Below, one piece after another: positions 1-49,019 of a DNA stretch of 49,019 nucleotides (its first letter is position 1; the number at the start of each line of letters is the position of its first letter). A program made the position numbers and the translations under genes. Location: IMG/VR virus record IMGVR_UViG_3300050120_000205, positions 1-49,019 of that record; one strand, given 5' to 3'. The notes under the pieces were generated by a model. That model did not search any database. It had not been told where the DNA came from and saw only the letters and a list, made by a program, of their open reading frames with translations. The DNA comes from a virus.

Positions 1-225
1 TCGTGGGACGGGTCGTTCGGCGAACTGCAAACGATTTTAGGCGCCGTTGCTGGATTCGGGACATTCATTTTTGCACAAGATAATTTCGACATGTCGTATA
101 CGATCGGCGTCAGCGGCGTAGTTCCGAGCGCCCTTTTCGTTGCCTTGTTACGACAAACTAATTATTGGTTACGCCCAATGACGGTCAGCGTCAACTTAAT
201 ACTCGTGACGAGCGTAAGCGGGACC
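1..225. repeat. Terminal direct repeat (circular closure), left copy
   Basis: Bases 1-225 repeat at 48795-49019 with one difference, G at 128 against A at 48922. The reading frame of the DUF2612 gene continues through the join, so the repeat marks assembly closure of a circular or circularly permuted genome rather than a true short terminal repeat. A genuine fixed terminal repeat of this length cannot be excluded from sequence alone. Confidence 0.85.
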
Positions 226-4813: not shown

Positions 4814-5037
4814 TTTTCTGTAATCTCCGTGAGAACAAAAACAATTTCAGTTAAAAAATTTTTATATTTAAAGATGATATTCCCGCCGCAAAATTCTGCA
4901 CCCCGAAGCGCCAGCGGTGCCGGAAATTCATTAGTCGACACGACACGGTCGATACAGTCGCAGGCCAACTCCAAGGACGCAACGTACTCGGAATAGCCGA
5001 CCCCTTTTATTATCCATGAGACCCGGAAATTGCTCAT
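4810..5037 (-). CDS. Hypothetical protein
   Basis: A 75-residue protein overlapping both neighbours by four bases (ATGA). The sequence looks like a small alpha/beta fold (MSNFRVSWIIKGVGYSEYV; then IIFKYKNFLTEIVFVLTEI). No recognised family or catalytic motif. Its position in a translationally coupled operon supports it as a real gene. Confidence 0.6.
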   Translation of the reverse strand: MSNFRVSWIIKGVGYSEYVASLELACDCIDRVVSTNEFPAPLALRGAEFCGGNIIFKYKNFLTEIVFVLTEITEK

Positions 5038-5723
5038 AGGGATCGAATGATCCCAAGCAATGCTTCTTTTTCAGATAACCACGCCGCCGACCACGCCGCC
5101 GACTCCGCCGACTCCGCCGCTGACCGCGCCGACCACGCCGCCGACCACGCCGACTCCGCCGCCGACCACGCCGACTCCGCCGCTGACCGCGCCGACCACG
5201 CCGCCGACCACGCCGACTCCGCCGACTCCGCCGCCGACCACGCCGACTCCGCCGCTGACCGCGCCGCCGACTCCGCCGCCGACTCCGTGTCAAACCCAAT
5301 AAGCTGTTGTTCGCAATACGAAATGACACCCTGAATGGCTGTGACGCATTGTTTCGCGTAGGGTTCGTCGTTCAATACCAACGGTTCCAGCAATTTTTTG
5401 TTACGCCAGATCGCCAGCATCCAGCGGACCGGCTCAAGATCGACGCCGGGTTTAATCGCTTCGAGTAAGTCAGTGCCAAATTGCGCCGCTTCGGCTTTAG
5501 GGACGCCCTCGAAAATAACGTCGGCCAATTGGGCAAGCCAAACAGGAACACCGAGTTCCGTCGGAAAGGCCGCATGATCGTATTTGTTTAATGTACAGCC
5601 CACGAAACAACCTCGGCCATTATCGAAGCCGGTACCTTGGATAACTTCATCCATCTCGCGGTGCAGTTGAAAGCGTTCAACGTACAGTTTCTTAACGGCA
5701 GGGTCGTTGTGGTAGGCCAGCAT
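5034..5723 (-). CDS. Phage protein with C-terminal Ser-Ala-Ala-Glu/Trp repeat
   Basis: A 229-residue protein. The ATG at 5723 has AGGAGA eight bases before it, so it is preferred over a GTG 24 bases upstream. Residues about 1-145 form a normal globular sequence (FVGCTLNKYDHAAFPTEL, PVWLAQLADVIFEG). Residues about 146-215 are built almost only from the units SAAE, SAW, SAAW, SAR and SAE. Similar repeats occur in unrelated phage proteins and probably form long Ala-rich helices. Function unknown; repeat number is likely variable between relatives. Confidence 0.7.
   Translation of the reverse strand: MLAYHNDPAVKKLYVERFQLHREMDEVIQGTGFDNGRGCFVGCTLNKYDHAAFPTELGVPVWLAQLADVIFEGVPKAEAAQFGTDLLEAIKPGVDLEPVRWMLAIWRNKKLLEPLVLNDEPYAKQCVTAIQGVISYCEQQLIGFDTESAAESAARSAAESAWSAAESAESAWSAAWSARSAAESAWSAAESAWSAAWSARSAAESAESAAWSAAWLSEKEALLGIIRSL
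5080..5288. repeat. Low-complexity coding repeat (GCC/GAC/CTC triplets)
   Basis: About 210 bases made of a few triplets, repeated in blocks such as GCCGACTCCGCC and GCCGACCACGCC on the plus strand. It encodes the Ser-Ala-rich tail of the leftward gene. All three plus-strand frames are nearly free of stops, so antisense open frames here are by-products of composition. A site prone to slippage and assembly error. Confidence 0.85.
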
Positions 5724-5739
5724 TTTTAGTTCTCCTATT

Positions 5740-5949
5740 TTATTCACGGGTTACTCCAAGTTTTGCCATCAAGGCAAGGTTTTCTACAGTTAAATCCTCT
5801 TCGGCGCATTGCATCAAAAAGAAACCGCCCGTCGTGTAGCTGCCGCGCTGGAACAGGTACCGGTTATTAACGCTATCGAAACCGCCATACACATATCCCG
5901 ATGGCGCCACGGCACGGCAAATATCTTTATGATTCGGGATCGGTTTCAT
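5740..5949 (-). CDS. Hypothetical protein
   Basis: A 69-residue protein beginning MKPIPNHKDICRAV. The ATG at 5949 overlaps the stop of the upstream gene (ATGA), so it is preferred to an upstream TTG. Contains GYVYGGFDSVNNRYLFQRGS and a helical C-terminus. Not recognised. Confidence 0.6.
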   Translation of the reverse strand: MKPIPNHKDICRAVAPSGYVYGGFDSVNNRYLFQRGSYTTGGFFLMQCAEEDLTVENLALMAKLGVTRE

Positions 5950-8781: not shown

Positions 8782-8987
8782 TGCCGGCGATCCCGCCAAC
8801 CGATCAAATCGCCGAACTCGCAACCAATAACGCCGAAAGTACCTTTTGTCGCATTCCACGCAACATAACAGTCCCGTTCATGGCTCGTGCGCATGCGCCC
8901 GATAAATCCAAACCAATGTTTATTTGGCAAGTCGGCCAAAGGTTTGAGCCCTTGCGCGCGTAATTGCATATCGCTGGTGTAAGTCAT
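8778..8987 (-). CDS. Hypothetical protein, first gene of polymerase operon
   Basis: A 69-residue protein (MTYTSDMQLRAQGLKPL, then KHWFGFIGRMRTSHERDCYV). A GAGAGGAAC ribosome-binding site precedes the ATG. The mRNA leader just before that site is one arm of a 17-bp inverted repeat, so translation here may be structured or regulated. Not recognised. Confidence 0.6.
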   Translation of the reverse strand: MTYTSDMQLRAQGLKPLADLPNKHWFGFIGRMRTSHERDCYVAWNATKGTFGVIGCEFGDLIGWRDRRQ

Positions 8988-8999
8988 TTTGTTCCTCTC

Positions 9000-9090
9000 G
9001 TTTTGATGGTCTGATTCGTTACTCGCTGCACGGCACGGGCCTCACCCAGCTAACTACCGAATCCGCTTTTACAAATCAGACCATCAAAAC
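9000..9090 (-). other. Structured leader: 17-bp perfect inverted repeat before the polymerase operon
   Basis: GTTTTGATGGTCTGATT at 9000-9016 is exactly complementary to 9074-9090; the 57-base interior contains further small GC-rich pairings. On the minus strand the 3' arm ends next to the GAGAGGAAC site of the gene at 8987. It follows a terminator-like hairpin at 9091-9108. It could be a cis-regulatory RNA, a small RNA, or a protein-binding site. It does not fit a tRNA. Confidence 0.6.
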
Positions 9091-9108
9091 GCCCCGGCGA
9101 ACCGAGGC
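9086..9108 (-). terminator. Rho-independent terminator after the ssDNA-binding-like gene
   Basis: On the minus strand GCCTCGG-TTCG-CCGGGGC forms a 7-bp stem (one G-U pair) with a UUCG tetraloop, followed by GTTTTG. It lies 11 bases after the stop of the gene ending at 9120 and would end or attenuate leftward transcription before the polymerase operon. The U-run is short, so readthrough is likely. Confidence 0.65.
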
Positions 9109-9119
9109 GAAATTACCGA

Positions 9120-10190
9120 TTAATATGGCAGCATATACCCGTGTTGAATGAGCAATGCGTCGGTCCAGCCAGCACCGGTCAACGATTCATAGGTCTGACC
9201 GACGGGAGCTGTGGCCGTCAATGCCTTGGCGCTTGCCATCGGAGGGGGCGGAGGCGGTGCGCCCGCGCCGAGAATAGCTGGGTTAGGGGTAACGGCAAGC
9301 GCAGTCGGTGCAGGGGGTGGTGGCGGAGGCGCAGAACCAGCGGGCGGCAAAGGGGCCGGTGCCACGCGTGCGCGCAAATCGGCTTCCGTCAATACTTCTT
9401 GTCCCATGTAGAAATGACCCGGTGCCGACGGATGCACGATCCATCCGGCAGGGGGCCACGCTACGGCGGCGGGTGCTGGTGGCGCGACGTTAGGGATCAA
9501 AGGCGGCGGAGGCGGTGCGCCCGGTGGTGCTGGTGGCGGAGCAATGTTAGGCATTTGACCGACTGGCGCAGCGGAAGCGCCAGCAGGCAAGGTAACACCC
9601 TGACCGAAGCCGGCAGCGCTCACATCTGGGCCGATGGAAATTTCGGGACCATAACCGGCCAAAGCAACCATGCGATGATTAAAATACAGGCCAGGTGAAT
9701 CAGTAGATTCGTTGTCGTCGACATCGCCAAAGACTTGAACGAAATAGCCGGGTTTGACTGCGTCTTTTTCCATGATCCGCGCGCTGCCGTCGGCGTTCCA
9801 AACTTGCGGAGCTTGACCGCCCGAAAACCAGACGATCCAGTGGCCTTTGTAGCCTTCGCCGTCGCACGGTTTTTTGTTGCTCTTGTTCGGGATTGTGCTG
9901 TCGCCGTCCGTAATTTTCCACGAGAAGTCCGGGCGTTGCGCCGCTGCCGGTTGAACTTGGTGACCGTAGGCCCAAATAGGCGCAAAGAAAGGATGTTGCG
10001 ACCAGTGAGTCTGTCCTGCGATTTTGGCGACGGCAACGCCGAATGACCATTCGCTGCGCGGCTGGCCCTTGCTCGCTCCCGATTTGAATAAGAGCGGTTC
10101 CCCTTTCTGGTTCGTCGTCCTCGGATTGTACAGCGAGCCGCCGATCAAACGAGCCGGCGGCGTTGTAATTTTAAGTTTGGTAGATGCCAT
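9120..10190 (-). CDS. ssDNA-binding-like replication protein (DUF2815-type) with Pro-rich linker
   Basis: A 356-residue protein. Residues 1-200 (ASTKLKITTPPARLIGGSLYN, then SEWSFGVAVAKI, GHWIVWFSGG, VKPGYFVQVFGDV) match phage DUF2815-type single-stranded-DNA-binding proteins, OB-fold-like. Residues about 215-325 are a flexible linker of Pro/Ala runs. The extreme C-terminus (TYESLTGAGWTDALLIQHGY) is a small conserved module. The ATG at 10190 has GGAG upstream; a TTG 15 bases earlier is rejected. It has its own class II promoter and acts with the nuclease and polymerase nearby. Confidence 0.75.
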   Translation of the reverse strand: MASTKLKITTPPARLIGGSLYNPRTTNQKGEPLLFKSGASKGQPRSEWSFGVAVAKIAGQTHWSQHPFFAPIWAYGHQVQPAAAQRPDFSWKITDGDSTIPNKSNKKPCDGEGYKGHWIVWFSGGQAPQVWNADGSARIMEKDAVKPGYFVQVFGDVDDNESTDSPGLYFNHRMVALAGYGPEISIGPDVSAAGFGQGVTLPAGASAAPVGQMPNIAPPPAPPGAPPPPPLIPNVAPPAPAAVAWPPAGWIVHPSAPGHFYMGQEVLTEADLRARVAPAPLPPAGSAPPPPPPAPTALAVTPNPAILGAGAPPPPPPMASAKALTATAPVGQTYESLTGAGWTDALLIQHGYMLPY

Positions 10191-10232
10191 GTGTTGATAC
10201 TCCAAAGTGTTGTTTGTAAAGAATGCCTACTG

Positions 10233-18810: not shown

Positions 18811-19119
18811 ATGCCACGCCTCAAATTAAAACCGACTGACCGCAAGCAACAAATCCTTACCGCTGCAATTTCCTTGGCGGTAAAGGACGGGTATCAGAAA
18901 GTGACGCGTGAGGCGATAGCGGAAGCGGCATTGTGCTCGCCGGGGCTTGTGTCGAATTATTTTAATACGATGACGCAGTGCCGCCGGGCCATTATGCGCG
19001 CGGCCATCAAAGACCGTAATTTGACCATCATTGCGCAGGGGGTTGTCGCCAAAGATAAAGACGCCCTTAAAGCGCCGACTGAGTTGCAAGAAGCCGCCCT
19101 CAAATCTCTGACTGCATAG
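18811..19119 (+). CDS. Small TetR-like transcriptional regulator
   Basis: A 102-residue protein with the N-terminal TetR DNA-binding domain: DRKQQILTAAISLAVKDGYQ, TREAIAEAALCSPGLVSNYF and the following helix ending MRAAI (about residues 10-70). It lacks the large ligand-binding domain of full TetR proteins, ending with a short helix. Similar short TetR-like proteins occur in this phage group. A class II palindrome lies in its promoter, so autoregulation and control of the other four class II sites are plausible; this link is inferred. Confidence 0.75.
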   Translation: MPRLKLKPTDRKQQILTAAISLAVKDGYQKVTREAIAEAALCSPGLVSNYFNTMTQCRRAIMRAAIKDRNLTIIAQGVVAKDKDALKAPTELQEAALKSLTA

Positions 19120-19123
19120 CCAC

Positions 19124-21523
19124 ATGCAACGACTACCCGACGCTTTGGCGCCGCTCGCGGCGTACCGGCAATTTATCGTCTACAAATTATCGCCCGACCC
19201 GCACAAGCCGGGGAAACTCAAAAAACAGCCCGCCGATTGGCGTACCGGTATCGTCGCACGCGGAACCGAGTTTTTAACTGACGCCCAAACGGCCATTTCG
19301 GCTGTAGCGTCCCTCGGGTCCGAGTACGGCGTGGGGTTCGAGTTCCAAGCCAGCGACCCGTTCTGGTTTCTGGATATCGACGGCTGTCTTTTGCCGGATG
19401 GTTCTCGCTGGTCCCCACTCGCCGAACAATTGGTGCAGGCTTTTTCCGATGCGGCCATCGAAGTGTCGACTTCCGGTAAAGGGCTGCACATCATCGGATC
19501 GGGCCGCGCCCCGCACCACGCCTGCCGCAACAAGGCGTACGGCTTGGAGTTCTATACCGAAAAGCGCTTCGTTGCGTTAACCGGTACGCACGCGGTCGGA
19601 TCCGTTTCGTCCGATTACACCGCGTCATTGCCTAGCCTGGTGCATCAATTCTTTCAGCCTTTGTCTGACAGCGCCGATCTATCCGCTGACTGGTCTGACG
19701 GACCTTGTGACGAGTGGAAAGGAAGTTTGGACGACGAGGAATTGTTACAGAGAATGCTGCGTTCGACCAGTGGCGCGCATGCTTTTAGCGGCAAGGCATC
19801 TTTCCGCGATTTGTTCGAATGCAACATCGATGCGCTGGTTAAGACCTACCCGCCGGACAGCGCCACGAGCGCGACACCCTACAACGCATCCAGCGCCGAT
19901 CGTGCGCTCGCGCAAATGCTGGCGTTTTGGACCGGCAAGGATTGCGAGCGGATCCAGCGCATCATGCAGCGCTCGGCGCTGGTGCGCGCCAAGTGGGACC
20001 GCGATGATTATATGGAAGCGACGATATTGTCGGCCGTCGCCACTTGCACCACGGTATTGACCGATAAGGATCCCGAACCGGTCGCGGGGGCGCCGGAAAT
20101 AGCGGCAAGCGCCAGCACCATGAAGGGGGAACGGGCCGCCGCGGAGATGGTCACGGGTTCCATGTATTCGGGCGTGCCGGAACAGCTCGCCTTATTCGGT
20201 GGCTGCGTATACGTGTTCGACGTAAACCGTATCCTCGTGCCGGGCGGCCTGTTGCTCAAACAGGATCAATTCCGCGTCATGTTCGGCGGCTATACGTTCG
20301 TCATGAGCAACGGCAACGACCGTACCATACGCGACGCCTACGAATGTTTTACGCAATCCCCGACCTACCGCTCCCCGCGCGCCGACAGCACTTGTTTCAA
20401 GCCGGACCGTGCGGCCGGCGAGATTATCCGCGATGCTGGCCGTACCCGCGTTAATGTGTGGTGGCCGATCGATGTGCCGCGCCAGGTCGGCGACGCCGGG
20501 CCGTTCCTGCGCCATCTCGAAAAGCTGTTGCCGAATGAGCGGGACCGGGAAATATTGCTGTCCTACATGTGCGCTTGCGTACAGCACAAGGGTGTTAAAT
20601 TCCAATGGGCGCCCTTGTTGCAAGGCGTCGAGGGCAACGGCAAAACGATGCTCACGCGTTGCGTTGCCGAGGCGATCGGTAAACGGTACGTGCATTGGCC
20701 AAAGGCGTCAAAGCTGGCCAAAGAGTTTAATGCTTGGATGCTCAATAAGTTGTTTTACGGCGTCGAGGATATTTACGTACCGGGCAATAAGCGCGATGTG
20801 ATCGAAGAGTTAAAACCAATGATTACCGGCGATGACCTGGAAATCGAGGGTAAAGGCGTCGACCAGATTTCAGCCGATATTTGCGGCAATTTTATGTTCA
20901 ATTCGAATCATAAAGATGCGCTCGTAAAAACCCGAAAAGACCGTCGTTTTGCTATTTTCTATACGCCGCAACAATTGGAAGAGGATTTGGCGCGCGACGG
21001 CATGACCGGTGATTATTTCCCGAAGCTGTACGAGTGGTTACGTGCCGGCGGTTACGCCATCGTGTCGGAATTGCTACACACCCGCCCTATCCGTGACGAA
21101 TTTAATCCGGCTACGAGTTGCATGCGCGCACCAATCACCACGTCGACGGAAGAGGCGATTAGCGAAAGTTTAGGACGTGTCGAGCAAGAAATCCTCGAAG
21201 CGGCCGAGATACATACGCCAGGCTTTGCGAACGGCTGGGTTTCATCGATCGCACTCGGCAATCTGCTGGAGAACCTTGGCAACGCGTCTCGTATCCCGCT
21301 CAATAAACGCCGGGATCTGATGGCGGGTTTGGGCTATTCCTACCATCCGGGCTTAGAGGGCGGCCGCGTCAATTCCAACATTTTGCCGGACGGCGGCAAG
21401 CCCCGTTTATATATCAAAAAAGACCACCCGCAACGCCTGCTTACCGGCGCCCATGTGATCGCTCAAGCCTATACCGAAGCGCAGAAAATAGATATTGACG
21501 CTTCCGTCAATAAGGCGGCATAA
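19124..21523 (+). CDS. Primase-helicase (Prim-Pol-like domain plus SF3/DUF5906 helicase)
   Basis: A 799-residue two-domain replication protein. The N-terminal primase-polymerase domain has FWFLDIDGC (Asp84, Asp86) and STSGKGLHIIG. The C-terminal helicase has Walker A GVEGNGKT at 501-508, a Walker B-like FYGVEDIYV, and the sensor FNSNHKDALVKTRKDRRF, as in DUF5906/D5-type phage primases. It would prime and unwind for the family A polymerase. It starts five bases after the TetR-like gene, probably co-transcribed. The last codons overlap another class II promoter. Confidence 0.92.
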   Translation: MQRLPDALAPLAAYRQFIVYKLSPDPHKPGKLKKQPADWRTGIVARGTEFLTDAQTAISAVASLGSEYGVGFEFQASDPFWFLDIDGCLLPDGSRWSPLAEQLVQAFSDAAIEVSTSGKGLHIIGSGRAPHHACRNKAYGLEFYTEKRFVALTGTHAVGSVSSDYTASLPSLVHQFFQPLSDSADLSADWSDGPCDEWKGSLDDEELLQRMLRSTSGAHAFSGKASFRDLFECNIDALVKTYPPDSATSATPYNASSADRALAQMLAFWTGKDCERIQRIMQRSALVRAKWDRDDYMEATILSAVATCTTVLTDKDPEPVAGAPEIAASASTMKGERAAAEMVTGSMYSGVPEQLALFGGCVYVFDVNRILVPGGLLLKQDQFRVMFGGYTFVMSNGNDRTIRDAYECFTQSPTYRSPRADSTCFKPDRAAGEIIRDAGRTRVNVWWPIDVPRQVGDAGPFLRHLEKLLPNERDREILLSYMCACVQHKGVKFQWAPLLQGVEGNGKTMLTRCVAEAIGKRYVHWPKASKLAKEFNAWMLNKLFYGVEDIYVPGNKRDVIEELKPMITGDDLEIEGKGVDQISADICGNFMFNSNHKDALVKTRKDRRFAIFYTPQQLEEDLARDGMTGDYFPKLYEWLRAGGYAIVSELLHTRPIRDEFNPATSCMRAPITTSTEEAISESLGRVEQEILEAAEIHTPGFANGWVSSIALGNLLENLGNASRIPLNKRRDLMAGLGYSYHPGLEGGRVNSNILPDGGKPRLYIKKDHPQRLLTGAHVIAQAYTEAQKIDIDASVNKAA

Positions 21524-24465: not shown

Positions 24466-24804
24466 TTACCAGCCCGCTACGGCGGGTTTTTTAACGCCTG
24501 GTGTATACCGGATTGACTCGTGTGCCATCGCGATAATAATCAGCGTGGCCTGCTCACGGGAATACCCTTTAACCTGCATCAGTGTGACCGCCAGCGGCTT
24601 GCCGCATAACGTGGCGATGGTGGTGACGATATCATCCTCGACGCGCTGGCCGGCCCGTAACGCATTCATGGCGGCTTGATCCATACACACCGTCGTCTGC
24701 CAGGCCAATAAGTCGACCATGCCGGCGGTCGGATCAAAAGTGACCGTCTCGACGGCCTGAGCGTTGCAAGATAACAACGCGACTAACGCAAGTAACTTTT
24801 TCAT
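24466..24804 (-). CDS. Putative secreted protein with signal peptide
   Basis: A 112-residue protein with a classical Sec signal peptide (MKKLLALVALLSCNAQA, cleavage likely after AQA). The mature part has CMDQAAMNALRAGQRVEDD and two cysteines that could pair in the periplasm. The C-terminus KKPAVAGW is encoded by the terminator of the converging transcript, a known by-product of such overlaps. Possibly envelope-active, e.g. superinfection-related; not shown. Confidence 0.6.
   Translation of the reverse strand: MKKLLALVALLSCNAQAVETVTFDPTAGMVDLLAWQTTVCMDQAAMNALRAGQRVEDDIVTTIATLCGKPLAVTLMQVKGYSREQATLIIIAMAHESIRYTPGVKKPAVAGW
24473..24492 (+). terminator. Rho-independent terminator
   Basis: CCCGC-TACG-GCGGG stem-loop (24473-24486) followed by TTTTTT. 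It ends rightward transcription after the exported acidic protein. It lies inside the last codons of the converging leftward gene, encoding its KKPAVAG tail. Confidence 0.85.
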
Positions 24805-25346
24805 GGTTTATCCGCCCAGTCTGGAATTGGAGATTCTCGCTCTTTTATCAATTGATCGCGATACGCATGCACTTTAGTGAGGTCGGGAGGCTTCGGCGCC
24901 CACAACACATTGACCACATCGCGCAGCATTTGCACGTGCTTAATAGGTACTCGAAACGGTCGAATCGGGATACCGCCCATCATCGGCATTTTGAACTTAT
25001 GTTCCGCCAAAATCGGATACTCGGCAACACATAGGGCCACGGCTGTATCGAAAACGGTACGAATATCCTCCTCCTTGACTAATTCTTTCGTTAAAACCAA
25101 ATTGCTTAAAGCCTCTTCCATCTGGGCCTGTTTGTCTTTAAAAGCGGCAATATCAGGGCCGTTATCGGCACGCGGGCGCGGTGGTCGGGACGCCGCTTGA
25201 GTGCTTCGGGCCTCCGCCAAACAGGTTGCGCACGTGCCTGACGTTGTGTAGCGGTATGATAAATGGCCGTTTCGACACGGTTTTCCGGTTTCGTAGTGCA
25301 TTAAGCCGAGAATCATAGCCTCTTTGCGCGTTATGATTTGTGCCAT
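24801..25346 (-). CDS. Protein with N-terminal Cys/His zinc motif
   Basis: A 181-residue protein. The N-terminus YETGKPCRNGHLSYRYTTSG followed by CATCL is the zinc-binding block seen before some phage HNH nucleases and in stand-alone phage proteins. No HNH core is visible downstream; instead a helical domain (KDKQAQMEEALSNLVLTKEL) and a conserved-looking KMPMMGGIPIRPFRVP. Overlaps the secreted-protein gene by ATGA. Confidence 0.6.
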   Translation of the reverse strand: MAQIITRKEAMILGLMHYETGKPCRNGHLSYRYTTSGTCATCLAEARSTQAASRPPRPRADNGPDIAAFKDKQAQMEEALSNLVLTKELVKEEDIRTVFDTAVALCVAEYPILAEHKFKMPMMGGIPIRPFRVPIKHVQMLRDVVNVLWAPKPPDLTKVHAYRDQLIKERESPIPDWADKP

Positions 25347-25454
25347 TTTCTACCCTTTATCATAAGTTATGAAAGCCCATCGTAACACGCTAGAACGGTT
25401 TATTGCAATTCTCCGAAACTAAAAGTAGGAAGTGTGTTGTTTAAATATCATACA

Positions 25455-25670
25455 TTACCCCTCAATTGTAAAGAAAAACGCTTAAAAACCGCATAAATTG
25501 TTCCCGTACTCCGCCCCCGAACCCCCCTTTTCAGATTGCTACTAGAGTACATCCTAATCTTTTCATAGGTTATGAATATGATGATGTAAAACATACACTC
25601 TACATTTATGATGTTCAAGGTAAATAGGAATATTTGTAAAGTAAGGGGAGTACGGGAACTATAGGGGTAA
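25455..25670. repeat. Nested inverted repeats
   Basis: GTTCCCGTACTCC at 25500-25512 pairs exactly with GGAGTACGGGAAC at 25647-25659; outside it, TTACCCCT at 25455-25462 pairs with AGGGGTAA at 25663-25670. Together they could bring both ends of an AT-rich 130-base segment together. Confidence 0.65.
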
Positions 25671-25693
25671 GGTATTGATTTAAAAGAATAAAA

Positions 25694-25738
25694 AAGTTCC
25701 CATACATACGGGGAAAGTACGGGGAGATACGGGAACTT
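25694..25738. repeat. Iteron-like TACGGGGA repeats within an inverted repeat
   Basis: AAGTTCCC (25694-25701) and GGGAACTT (25731-25738) flank three direct units: TACGGGGA, TACGGGGA and TACGGGAA, spaced about 10-11 bp, i.e. one helical turn. This is the spacing expected for cooperative protein binding, as by small terminase or an initiator. Confidence 0.6.
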
Positions 25739-25910
25739 AAAATAGGCGTTCATTTTGGGCCGTAAATAGCGCAGCGGTGGGTTTGATGCGCGACGATTAA
25801 GGCGCTTCGTGATGGTCGATGCTTGCCGGGATGCGGTCTGTCGTTTGCCGTAAGCGCCTAGCAAAAATTAGATTAGAAACTGAGGTGCGCTTTGTTGCAT
25901 AATTCGCGCT

Positions 25911-26681
25911 ATGAGCAAATCTTTCGACAACCTTAATTACAACGAACGGCATTTCGTTGCGGAGTACGTCAAGGGCATTCCCCGTAATGCGACCGAAGCA
26001 TACTTGCGCGTCTATCCGACGGCCAGCCGGAAGAGTGCAGGCGTATCGTCAAGCGTGATAATGCAGCGCCCCGCCGTTATCGCCGAAATCGAAAAGCGCG
26101 AAAGAATGTTGCAGGCCGATTTGCATTTGGAAGCGGCCGAGGTCATTCGAGAGGTGGCGCTGATTGCGTCCGCCGATCCTCGCGAACTGGTCGAGCATCT
26201 TGTCGGCGCCTGCCGGCACTGCCATGGCGCCGGTTTTAAATACCAACGCAAGCCGCAGGAATACCGGGACGCGCTGGCCGTCTACCTCAAGAAAAACCCG
26301 GAGGATCCACTCGGCATGAGTTTCGACATGCTGGGCGGCATCGGCTATCGGTTAGATACCGGGCCAAACCCTGAATGTCCCGAGTGTGAAGGCCGCGGCT
26401 TGGAATATACCGTCATGAAGGACACGAGCAAACTATCGCCAGCCGCCGCCAGGCTGTACGCAGGCGTCAAGATGACGAAAGATGGCAAGACGATTCAGAT
26501 GCGATCGCAGGACAAAATGGCCGAACTCGCCGGCCAGCATCTGGGGCTGTTTAAGAAAACCGTCGAGATGTCCGGTAAAAACGGCGCACCGATACCGATT
26601 GCAAGCGTTACGGCCTCGTTGCAGGCCGCCAGCGCGACAGATGCGGCCGACATCTACCAAACCCTGATTGCGGGCGCCTAA
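25911..26681 (+). CDS. Terminase small subunit with DnaJ-like zinc motif
   Basis: A 256-residue protein. N-terminal HTH region of small terminases: NYNERHFVAEYVKGIPRNAT, AYLRVYP, then SSVIMQRPAVIAEIEKRE. The centre contains CRHCHGAGFKY and, after about 50 residues, CPECEGRGLEY, a DnaJ-like CxxCxGxG zinc pair. The C-terminus (AELAGQHLGLFKKTVEM) is the typical terminase-2 ending. It recognises phage DNA for packaging and recruits the large subunit, encoded next. Confidence 0.85.
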   Translation: MSKSFDNLNYNERHFVAEYVKGIPRNATEAYLRVYPTASRKSAGVSSSVIMQRPAVIAEIEKRERMLQADLHLEAAEVIREVALIASADPRELVEHLVGACRHCHGAGFKYQRKPQEYRDALAVYLKKNPEDPLGMSFDMLGGIGYRLDTGPNPECPECEGRGLEYTVMKDTSKLSPAAARLYAGVKMTKDGKTIQMRSQDKMAELAGQHLGLFKKTVEMSGKNGAPIPIASVTASLQAASATDAADIYQTLIAGA

Positions 26682-46901: not shown

Positions 46902-47254
46902 GAAACCGAGGCGAAAGCGCAACAGGGGATTACCGTTTCGGTTTGAGCGATGCCTATTTTTTGGTTAATTCGCCGGAAGCTGTGGCGCAGGCAATACAAA
47001 CCCGTTTGGAGTTACGGACCGGCGAGTGGTATCTCGACTTGACCGAGGGAACGCCCTATTCCACGCAGATTTTAGGAAAAGGTACACAATCGCTCTACGA
47101 TCATGCCGTGCAAGAGCGTATACTCGGCACGCCGGGCGTATCGGCGATTACAAACTATTCGAGCACGCTGGACAGTGCGCGCAAATTGTCGATATCGGCA
47201 ACAGTGCTGACTATCTACAGCGAGGATGCGATCACCGTTGAAAAGGCATTCTGA
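46898..47254 (+). CDS. Baseplate wedge protein, gp25/W-like
   Basis: A 118-residue protein: SPEAVAQAIQTRLELRTGEW, YLDLTEGTPYSTQILGKG, and ERILGTPGVSAITNYSSTLD. It follows the gp25-like wedge fold. Placed, as usual, just before the J-like wedge gene, which it overlaps by one base. Confidence 0.85.
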   Translation: MRNRGESATGDYRFGLSDAYFLVNSPEAVAQAIQTRLELRTGEWYLDLTEGTPYSTQILGKGTQSLYDHAVQERILGTPGVSAITNYSSTLDSARKLSISATVLTIYSEDAITVEKAF

Positions 47255-48432: not shown

Positions 48433-49019
48433 TGGCCTCGATTGACGATTACCTCGCGCTGGTCCCTTCGGCAAATGCCGGGCAGCCCGATTTCATGGCG
48501 TTGCTGCAGGCGCTACTCGAACCCTTTGTCGATATCCAAAACGCGCTCGCCGGTATGCCGGACGATTTCGATATTGACGAGGCGCTTGGCCCACAACTGG
48601 ATGCAATCGGCGTACGCGTCGGCCTATCGCGGCAATTAAGTGTGCCGATCACGGGTGTCTATTTCGCTTTAGATACGGCTGGTGTCGGGCTGGATCAAGG
48701 CGTGATACTCGGGCCGTTCGATCCGATTGACGGCTTGACCTCAATTGATGATGAAACCTATCGCCTATTTCTGAAAATCAAGATTCTAGCCAATTCGTGG
48801 GACGGGTCGTTCGGCGAACTGCAAACGATTTTAGGCGCCGTTGCTGGATTCGGGACATTCATTTTTGCACAAGATAATTTCGACATGTCGTATACGATCG
48901 GCGTCAGCGGCGTAGTTCCGAACGCCCTTTTCGTTGCCTTGTTACGACAAACTAATTATTGGTTACGCCCAATGACGGTCAGCGTCAACTTAATACTCGT
49001 GACGAGCGTAAGCGGGACC
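48432..49019 (+). CDS. Baseplate/tail protein, DUF2612-like, N-terminal part (continues at base 1)
   Basis: ATG at 48432 overlapping the J stop. Starts MASIDDYLALVPSANAGQPD, with LGPQLDAIGVRVGLSRQL and the GLTSIDDETYRLFLKIKIL block typical of DUF2612. It runs off the window end after 196 codons; the rest is encoded at 226-300. Joined length about 220 residues. Acts at the baseplate periphery, inferred from order. Confidence 0.8.
   Translation, partial: MASIDDYLALVPSANAGQPDFMALLQALLEPFVDIQNALAGMPDDFDIDEALGPQLDAIGVRVGLSRQLSVPITGVYFALDTAGVGLDQGVILGPFDPIDGLTSIDDETYRLFLKIKILANSWDGSFGELQTILGAVAGFGTFIFAQDNFDMSYTIGVSGVVPNALFVALLRQTNYWLRPMTVSVNLILVTSVSGT
48795..49019. repeat. Terminal direct repeat (circular closure), right copy
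   Basis: Same 225 bases as 1-225 apart from A at 48922 (G at 128), changing Ser to Asn. Best read as the overlap of a circular assembly with a real or erroneous variant. Confidence 0.85.

Follow-up and report, generated by a model that had tools for sequence, protein, structure and literature searches.

Several described replication systems offer points of comparison for the locus considered here. In PICI origins, two sets of iterons flank an AT-rich region, a layout said to be common to no other known bacterial replicon (PMC6092414), and such repeats are bound by SaPI Rep and by SCCmec Cch2, the latter via its C-terminal domain (PMC7581432). The recognition site of NrS-1 spans 8 nt (PMC8718748), plasmid pRN1 has as its origin a stem-loop that follows the PrimPol gene (PMC4234260), and terS or its vicinity is a frequent place for pac sites (PMC5217972). 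The gene-free island described below was found in an IMG/VR virus record (IMGVR_UViG_3300050120_000205, positions 1 to 49,019; this whole 49,019-nt stretch is hereafter called the window) and is, on comparative sequence grounds, probably a phage replication origin of the iteron/AT-rich core/iteron type.

The two ends of the window (1-225 and 48795-49019) are 99.6% identical over 225 bp and lie in frame within one tail gene, which makes it probable that the record, though classed as linear, is a complete circular map with a unit of ~48,794 bp; when the ends are merged, the junction tail gene encodes ~220 aa, close to the length of its positional counterpart in Stenotrophomonas phage B2, an annotated DUF2612 protein of 216 aa. 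The replication genes of the window include those for a family A polymerase, a helicase, RdgC, a TetR-HTH mini-protein, and a primase-helicase (Table 1). The island extends from the start codon of a divergent minus-strand ORF to the ATG of terS, and both its 564 gene-free bases and its placement directly upstream of terS are as the earlier note had given them. The sole long ORF within it (25448-25864, minus strand, TTG start, 138 aa) has no PHROG match, an Rfam scan of the island yielded no family match, a nucleotide-level search of the island DNA against phages returned nothing, and a related-locus search using the zinc-finger-like protein on its left flank likewise gave no matches.

Table 1. 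Features of the island and of the associated genes (window coordinates).
Feature	Position	Strand	Basis
Gene-free island, candidate replication origin	25347..25910		gene calls, GC, PHROG/Rfam scans, shuffles
Palindrome TCATAAGTTATGA, 14 bp away from the minus-strand start codon	25360..25372		
Left TACCCC (GGGGTA) box	25456..25461	-	
13-bp inverted repeat, left arm GTTCCCGTACTCC, with minus-strand TACGGG site	25500..25512		
Candidate unwinding region: 80-bp AT-rich core with a GC of 0.25, repeated words on either side	25555..25634		
Palindrome TCATAGGTTATGA, within the AT-rich core	25563..25575		
13-bp inverted repeat, right arm GGAGTACGGGAAC, contains TACGGGAAC	25647..25659		
GGGGTA box beside the AT-rich core, as in many relatives	25664..25669	+	
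AAATCAATACCTTAC, best copy in the window of element AAATCAAYGACTTAG, 15.6 bits	25667..25681	-	
Repeat cluster on the right: TACGGGGA (25707), TACGGGGA (25718), and TACGGGAA (25728) within the inverted repeat AAGTTCCCATA / TACGGGAACTT	25694..25738		
TetR-HTH mini-protein, 102 aa (phrog_8723), immediately upstream of primase	18811..19119	+	
Primase-helicase, 799 aa (phrog_1829; NrS-1 HBD, DUF5906), candidate initiator	19124..21523	+	
Divergent zinc-finger-like protein (phrog_1081), left flank of the island	24801..25346	-	
Terminase small subunit (terS), begins at the end of the island	25911..26681	+	

Two properties of the island itself speak for an origin, namely that GC falls to its lowest value there (~0.35 over 250 bp vs ~0.55 for the window overall) and that its repeats exceed those of 1000 dinucleotide shuffles of the island (24 repeated 7-mers vs a shuffle mean of 10.7, a count reached in 2/1000). 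GC skew along the window, a check proposed in the earlier note, makes no turn at the island, an uninformative result that weighs, if anything, against the origin reading. The island is not the top repeat locus of the window, being outscored by coding DNA at ~4.7-5.1 kb and by an 18-bp inverted repeat at ~9 kb. A minus-strand ORF (5034-5747) carries an extended low-complexity tract of SAAESAWSA repeats, and nowhere else is the window so repetitive; the 18-bp inverted repeat is a perfect one (~8961-9250) near the gap preceding ORF 9120-10205.

The observation in the earlier note is correct, and the repeats that it had singled out are all present. Helical-phase copies of TACGGGG/A, spaced 11 and 10 bp apart, do lie within an inverted repeat (arms 25694-25704 and 25728-25738), and the 13-bp inverted repeat is likewise present, with perfect arms and a span of 160 bp; a perfect arm of at least 13 bp arose in 5/1000 shuffles. 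TACGGG sites number five in the island, compared with a shuffle mean of 0.38 (0/1000 shuffles reaching the observed count), whereas genome-wide the word is not enriched (29 vs 22), so that the clustering is the unusual part. The two TCATA(A/G)GTTATGA palindromes reported earlier (25360 and 25563) are real as a pair but do not exceed chance (2 seen vs a shuffle mean of 3.35), 13-nt palindromes of such quality being expected at this DNA composition; the copy nearest the minus-strand gene, TCATAAGTTATGA, is more likely regulatory or fortuitous. Repeated-word positions are distributed about the 80-bp core with 10 to its left, none inside, and 32 to its right.

Profile searches with the primase-helicase, the candidate initiator, matched the NrS-1 primase (E 3e-48) and, over the N-terminal part, the SaPI5 DNA primase 7ola (E 1e-39), and Foldseek returned NrS-1, SaPI5 PriRep, and viral primase-helicase structures, including 7ola and 7pds; the enzyme is thus kin to both the NrS-1 polymerase and the SaPI5 primase-helicase, and the PrimPol, HBD, and hexameric helicase domains of an NrS-1-like replicase are present by Pfam, PDB profile, and fold matches. 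In the structural model, the C-terminus comprises two helices (708-717 and 726-735) followed by strands, with a winged-helix-like look for which sequence searches gave no supporting match. The model of the TetR-HTH mini-protein has a pLDDT of 93, and its likeness to TetR-family regulators is clear by profile and weak by fold.

Relatives by primase were gathered from IMG/VR and from cultured phages, the latter including Klebsiella JD001 and other jedunaviruses, Pantoea AAM22, Acinetobacter Scuro, Shewanella SppYZU01, Stenotrophomonas B2, and Vibrio VchM-138; PF22763 and PF19263 were found in 44/44 of the primase relatives. Salmonella phage Solent (9NA-like), which has different repeats and is without an annotated TetR gene beside its primase, was left out. 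A search of genome contigs placed one relative in a metagenome-assembled Sideroxydans genome, and a plasmid search with the primase gave only partial, distant matches. The TetR-HTH gene lies shortly upstream of the primase gene in nearly all loci with enough sequence; in ten of these (L135, L136, L150, L151, L161, L181, L183-L185, and L187) the encoded protein is longer and carries an additional TetR-like stretch ahead of the first one.

Similar islands accompany this module, an observation in favor of the origin reading. Wherever the region could be read in relatives with the TetR-HTH and NrS-1-like primase-helicase module, an AT-rich gap of ~300-560 bp lies where the replication genes meet the module to their right, in most cases following a divergent gene of the zinc-finger-like type. 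In 23/25 of the islands examined, repeated words stand on both sides of the 80-bp AT-rich core. The layout recurs with differing words: TACCCCG is used by JD001, AAM22, and four other loci (L089, L090, L102, and L123), TACGGGG/A (including TACGGGGA) by the window, TGACGGA by L128, ACTTGGG by B2, TGTGACA by VchM-138, TACTCCCGAAC by L124, and TATACCGGCC by L160. Against the reading stand some ten examined islands in which 7-mer enrichment over shuffles was absent (L083, L086, L088, L101, L111, L114, L125, L135, L137, and L184). The best single 7-mer count upstream of TerL did not discriminate phages with the primase from controls.

These comparisons bear on two other accounts of the island. It might be only a divergent control region, from which terS and the zinc-finger-like gene are regulated through promoters and operators, as the divergent flanking genes, the palindrome close to the minus-strand start codon, and promoter-like sites at 25874-25903 (plus strand) and 25472-25444 (minus strand) would suggest. 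However, the promoter-like sites are no more numerous than chance would give (2 vs 1.6 expected), and the length of 300-560 bp, the AT-rich core, and the copies on either side recur despite differing flanking genes; this account is quite unlikely. Alternatively, a hairpin could take the place of double-stranded repeat binding in the action of the origin, a mechanism proposed for the PrimPol of plasmid pRN1. The stretch 25490-25745, as single-stranded DNA, folds better than shuffles (z -3.4), which is weakly compatible with such action, but the gain may merely reflect inverted copies of the repeat word, and the islands of many relatives carry direct repeats; a hairpin origin is accordingly very unlikely here.

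A second shared element, AAATCAAYGACTTAG, was first noticed by eye and was then represented by a matrix built from 17 sites and tested at a threshold of 16 bits. Sites of at least 16 bits occurred in 15/63 distinct held-out loci, whereas 100 column-permuted matrices gave 3.7 on average and 10 at most. The held-out sites mostly sit in the low-GC tail of their locus; among control TerL loci, 5/78 have a site, and the four of these five that were inspected look coding. The best copy in the window falls just under the threshold, which counts against the origin reading. In one relative (L168, 16680-17180), the repeat word TAAGTCG is the end of a AAATCAACGACTTA element, so that iteron and element may have become one there.

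The earlier note had left the choice between a pac site and a replication origin, and it is the second that the comparative evidence favors, the case for the first being one of position. If the island were a pac site, TerS would bind the repeats and TerL would make the first headful cut there; the island stands immediately before terS, a terminase gene comes next in most relatives (which also counts against the origin reading), and the overlapping ends of the window fit a circularly permuted genome. Headful pac sites likewise lie in or near terS, but the ancestry of TerS is not mirrored in the island repeats. Islands with TACCCCG accompany small terminases that BLASTP shows to be unrelated (those of the JD001 and AAM22 group, the window-like group, and Scuro), while the window-like TerS group carries several different repeat words, and another gene follows the island in SppYZU01 (a minor tail protein gene), L130 (a methyltransferase gene, with TerL 5.5 kb off), and L168 (an HNH gene). 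Furthermore, prophages with 57-62% identical TerL and without such a primase have repeats inside terS instead. A pac site is therefore unlikely, and an origin is favored because the architecture of the island tracks the replication module and not one terminase family, with TACCCCG crossing unrelated small terminases. A combined origin and packaging role is possible, since the islands usually adjoin terminase genes. L123 had been considered as a further island away from terS and was dropped, as a terS of another family follows it.

If the island is an origin, the primase-helicase, possibly aided by the TetR-HTH mini-protein, would bind next to the AT-rich core, at the repeat words and at the shared element of AAATCAAYGACTTAG type, would open that core, and would load as a ring helicase and prime DNA synthesis; we infer which protein binds which element, as well as the melting and the firing. 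Like the origins of PICIs and SaPIs (with Rep or PriRep, e.g., SaPI5), the island has repeats flanking an AT-rich region and a repeat word that varies between elements, and a related primase-helicase is its candidate initiator, as the match to SaPI5 7ola indicates. Unlike them, it does not lie directly 3′ of the initiator gene, the primase gene ending at 21523 and the island starting at 25347 (a distance of 3.8 kb that also weighs against the origin reading); in addition, a TetR-HTH gene immediately precedes the primase gene, the extra element AAATCAAYGACTTAG is shared, and the phages that carry such islands are ordinary ones that encode a family A polymerase of their own. Because the layout and a related primase-helicase are common to both and the location is not, the islands are likened to PICI origins in their mode of action but are not classed among them.

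The other two systems resemble the window in part. The PrimPol, helix-bundle, and ring-helicase parts of the NrS-1 enzyme are related to those of the window, although the window additionally has a gene for a family A polymerase; the island lacks the NrS-1 recognition word TTTGGTTA, the sole copy of which in the window (46960-46967) is at chance level. Plasmid pRN1 similarly has a gene for a small DNA-binding regulator (orf56) beside a PrimPol-helicase gene (orf904) and a noncoding origin, but that origin is a ~100-nt stem-loop directly after the replicase gene.

In the library searched, neither the island nor an origin for this phage set, cultured Klebsiella jedunaviruses included, was found to be described; the island offers a candidate, testable origin for a large set of phages among which these jedunaviruses are counted. 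An iteron/AT-rich core/iteron layout in ordinary phages with a related primase-helicase bears on the exchange of replicons between satellites and phages, and a repeat word that changes rapidly while the layout stays the same would provide a natural system for the study of initiator-origin co-evolution. A more elaborate version, conceivable but doubtful, would have the constant element AAATCAAYGACTTAG read by the primase-helicase and the fast-changing iteron word read by a co-evolving TetR-HTH mini-protein, which would hence be a TetR-type replication initiator, with placement by the terminase genes coupling the origin to the first packaging cut across a wide phage family.

Lastly, the repeats of the prophages mentioned above were observed in their own right. 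In four prophages (L060, L018, L057, and L031), short repeats lie ~460 bp upstream of TerL, inside terS, and further examples (L064, L075, and L080) have them further upstream of TerL; no such internal repeats were found in the terS of the window. The letters of these repeats change in concert while their places are nearly fixed, the words being GGTTACC (L060), GGTTGCC (L018), TGTTTCC (L057), and GGTTCGC (L031, L064, L075, and L080). The repeats could be TerS-binding sites, and those internal to terS mark where pac might be sought for this class of terminase.
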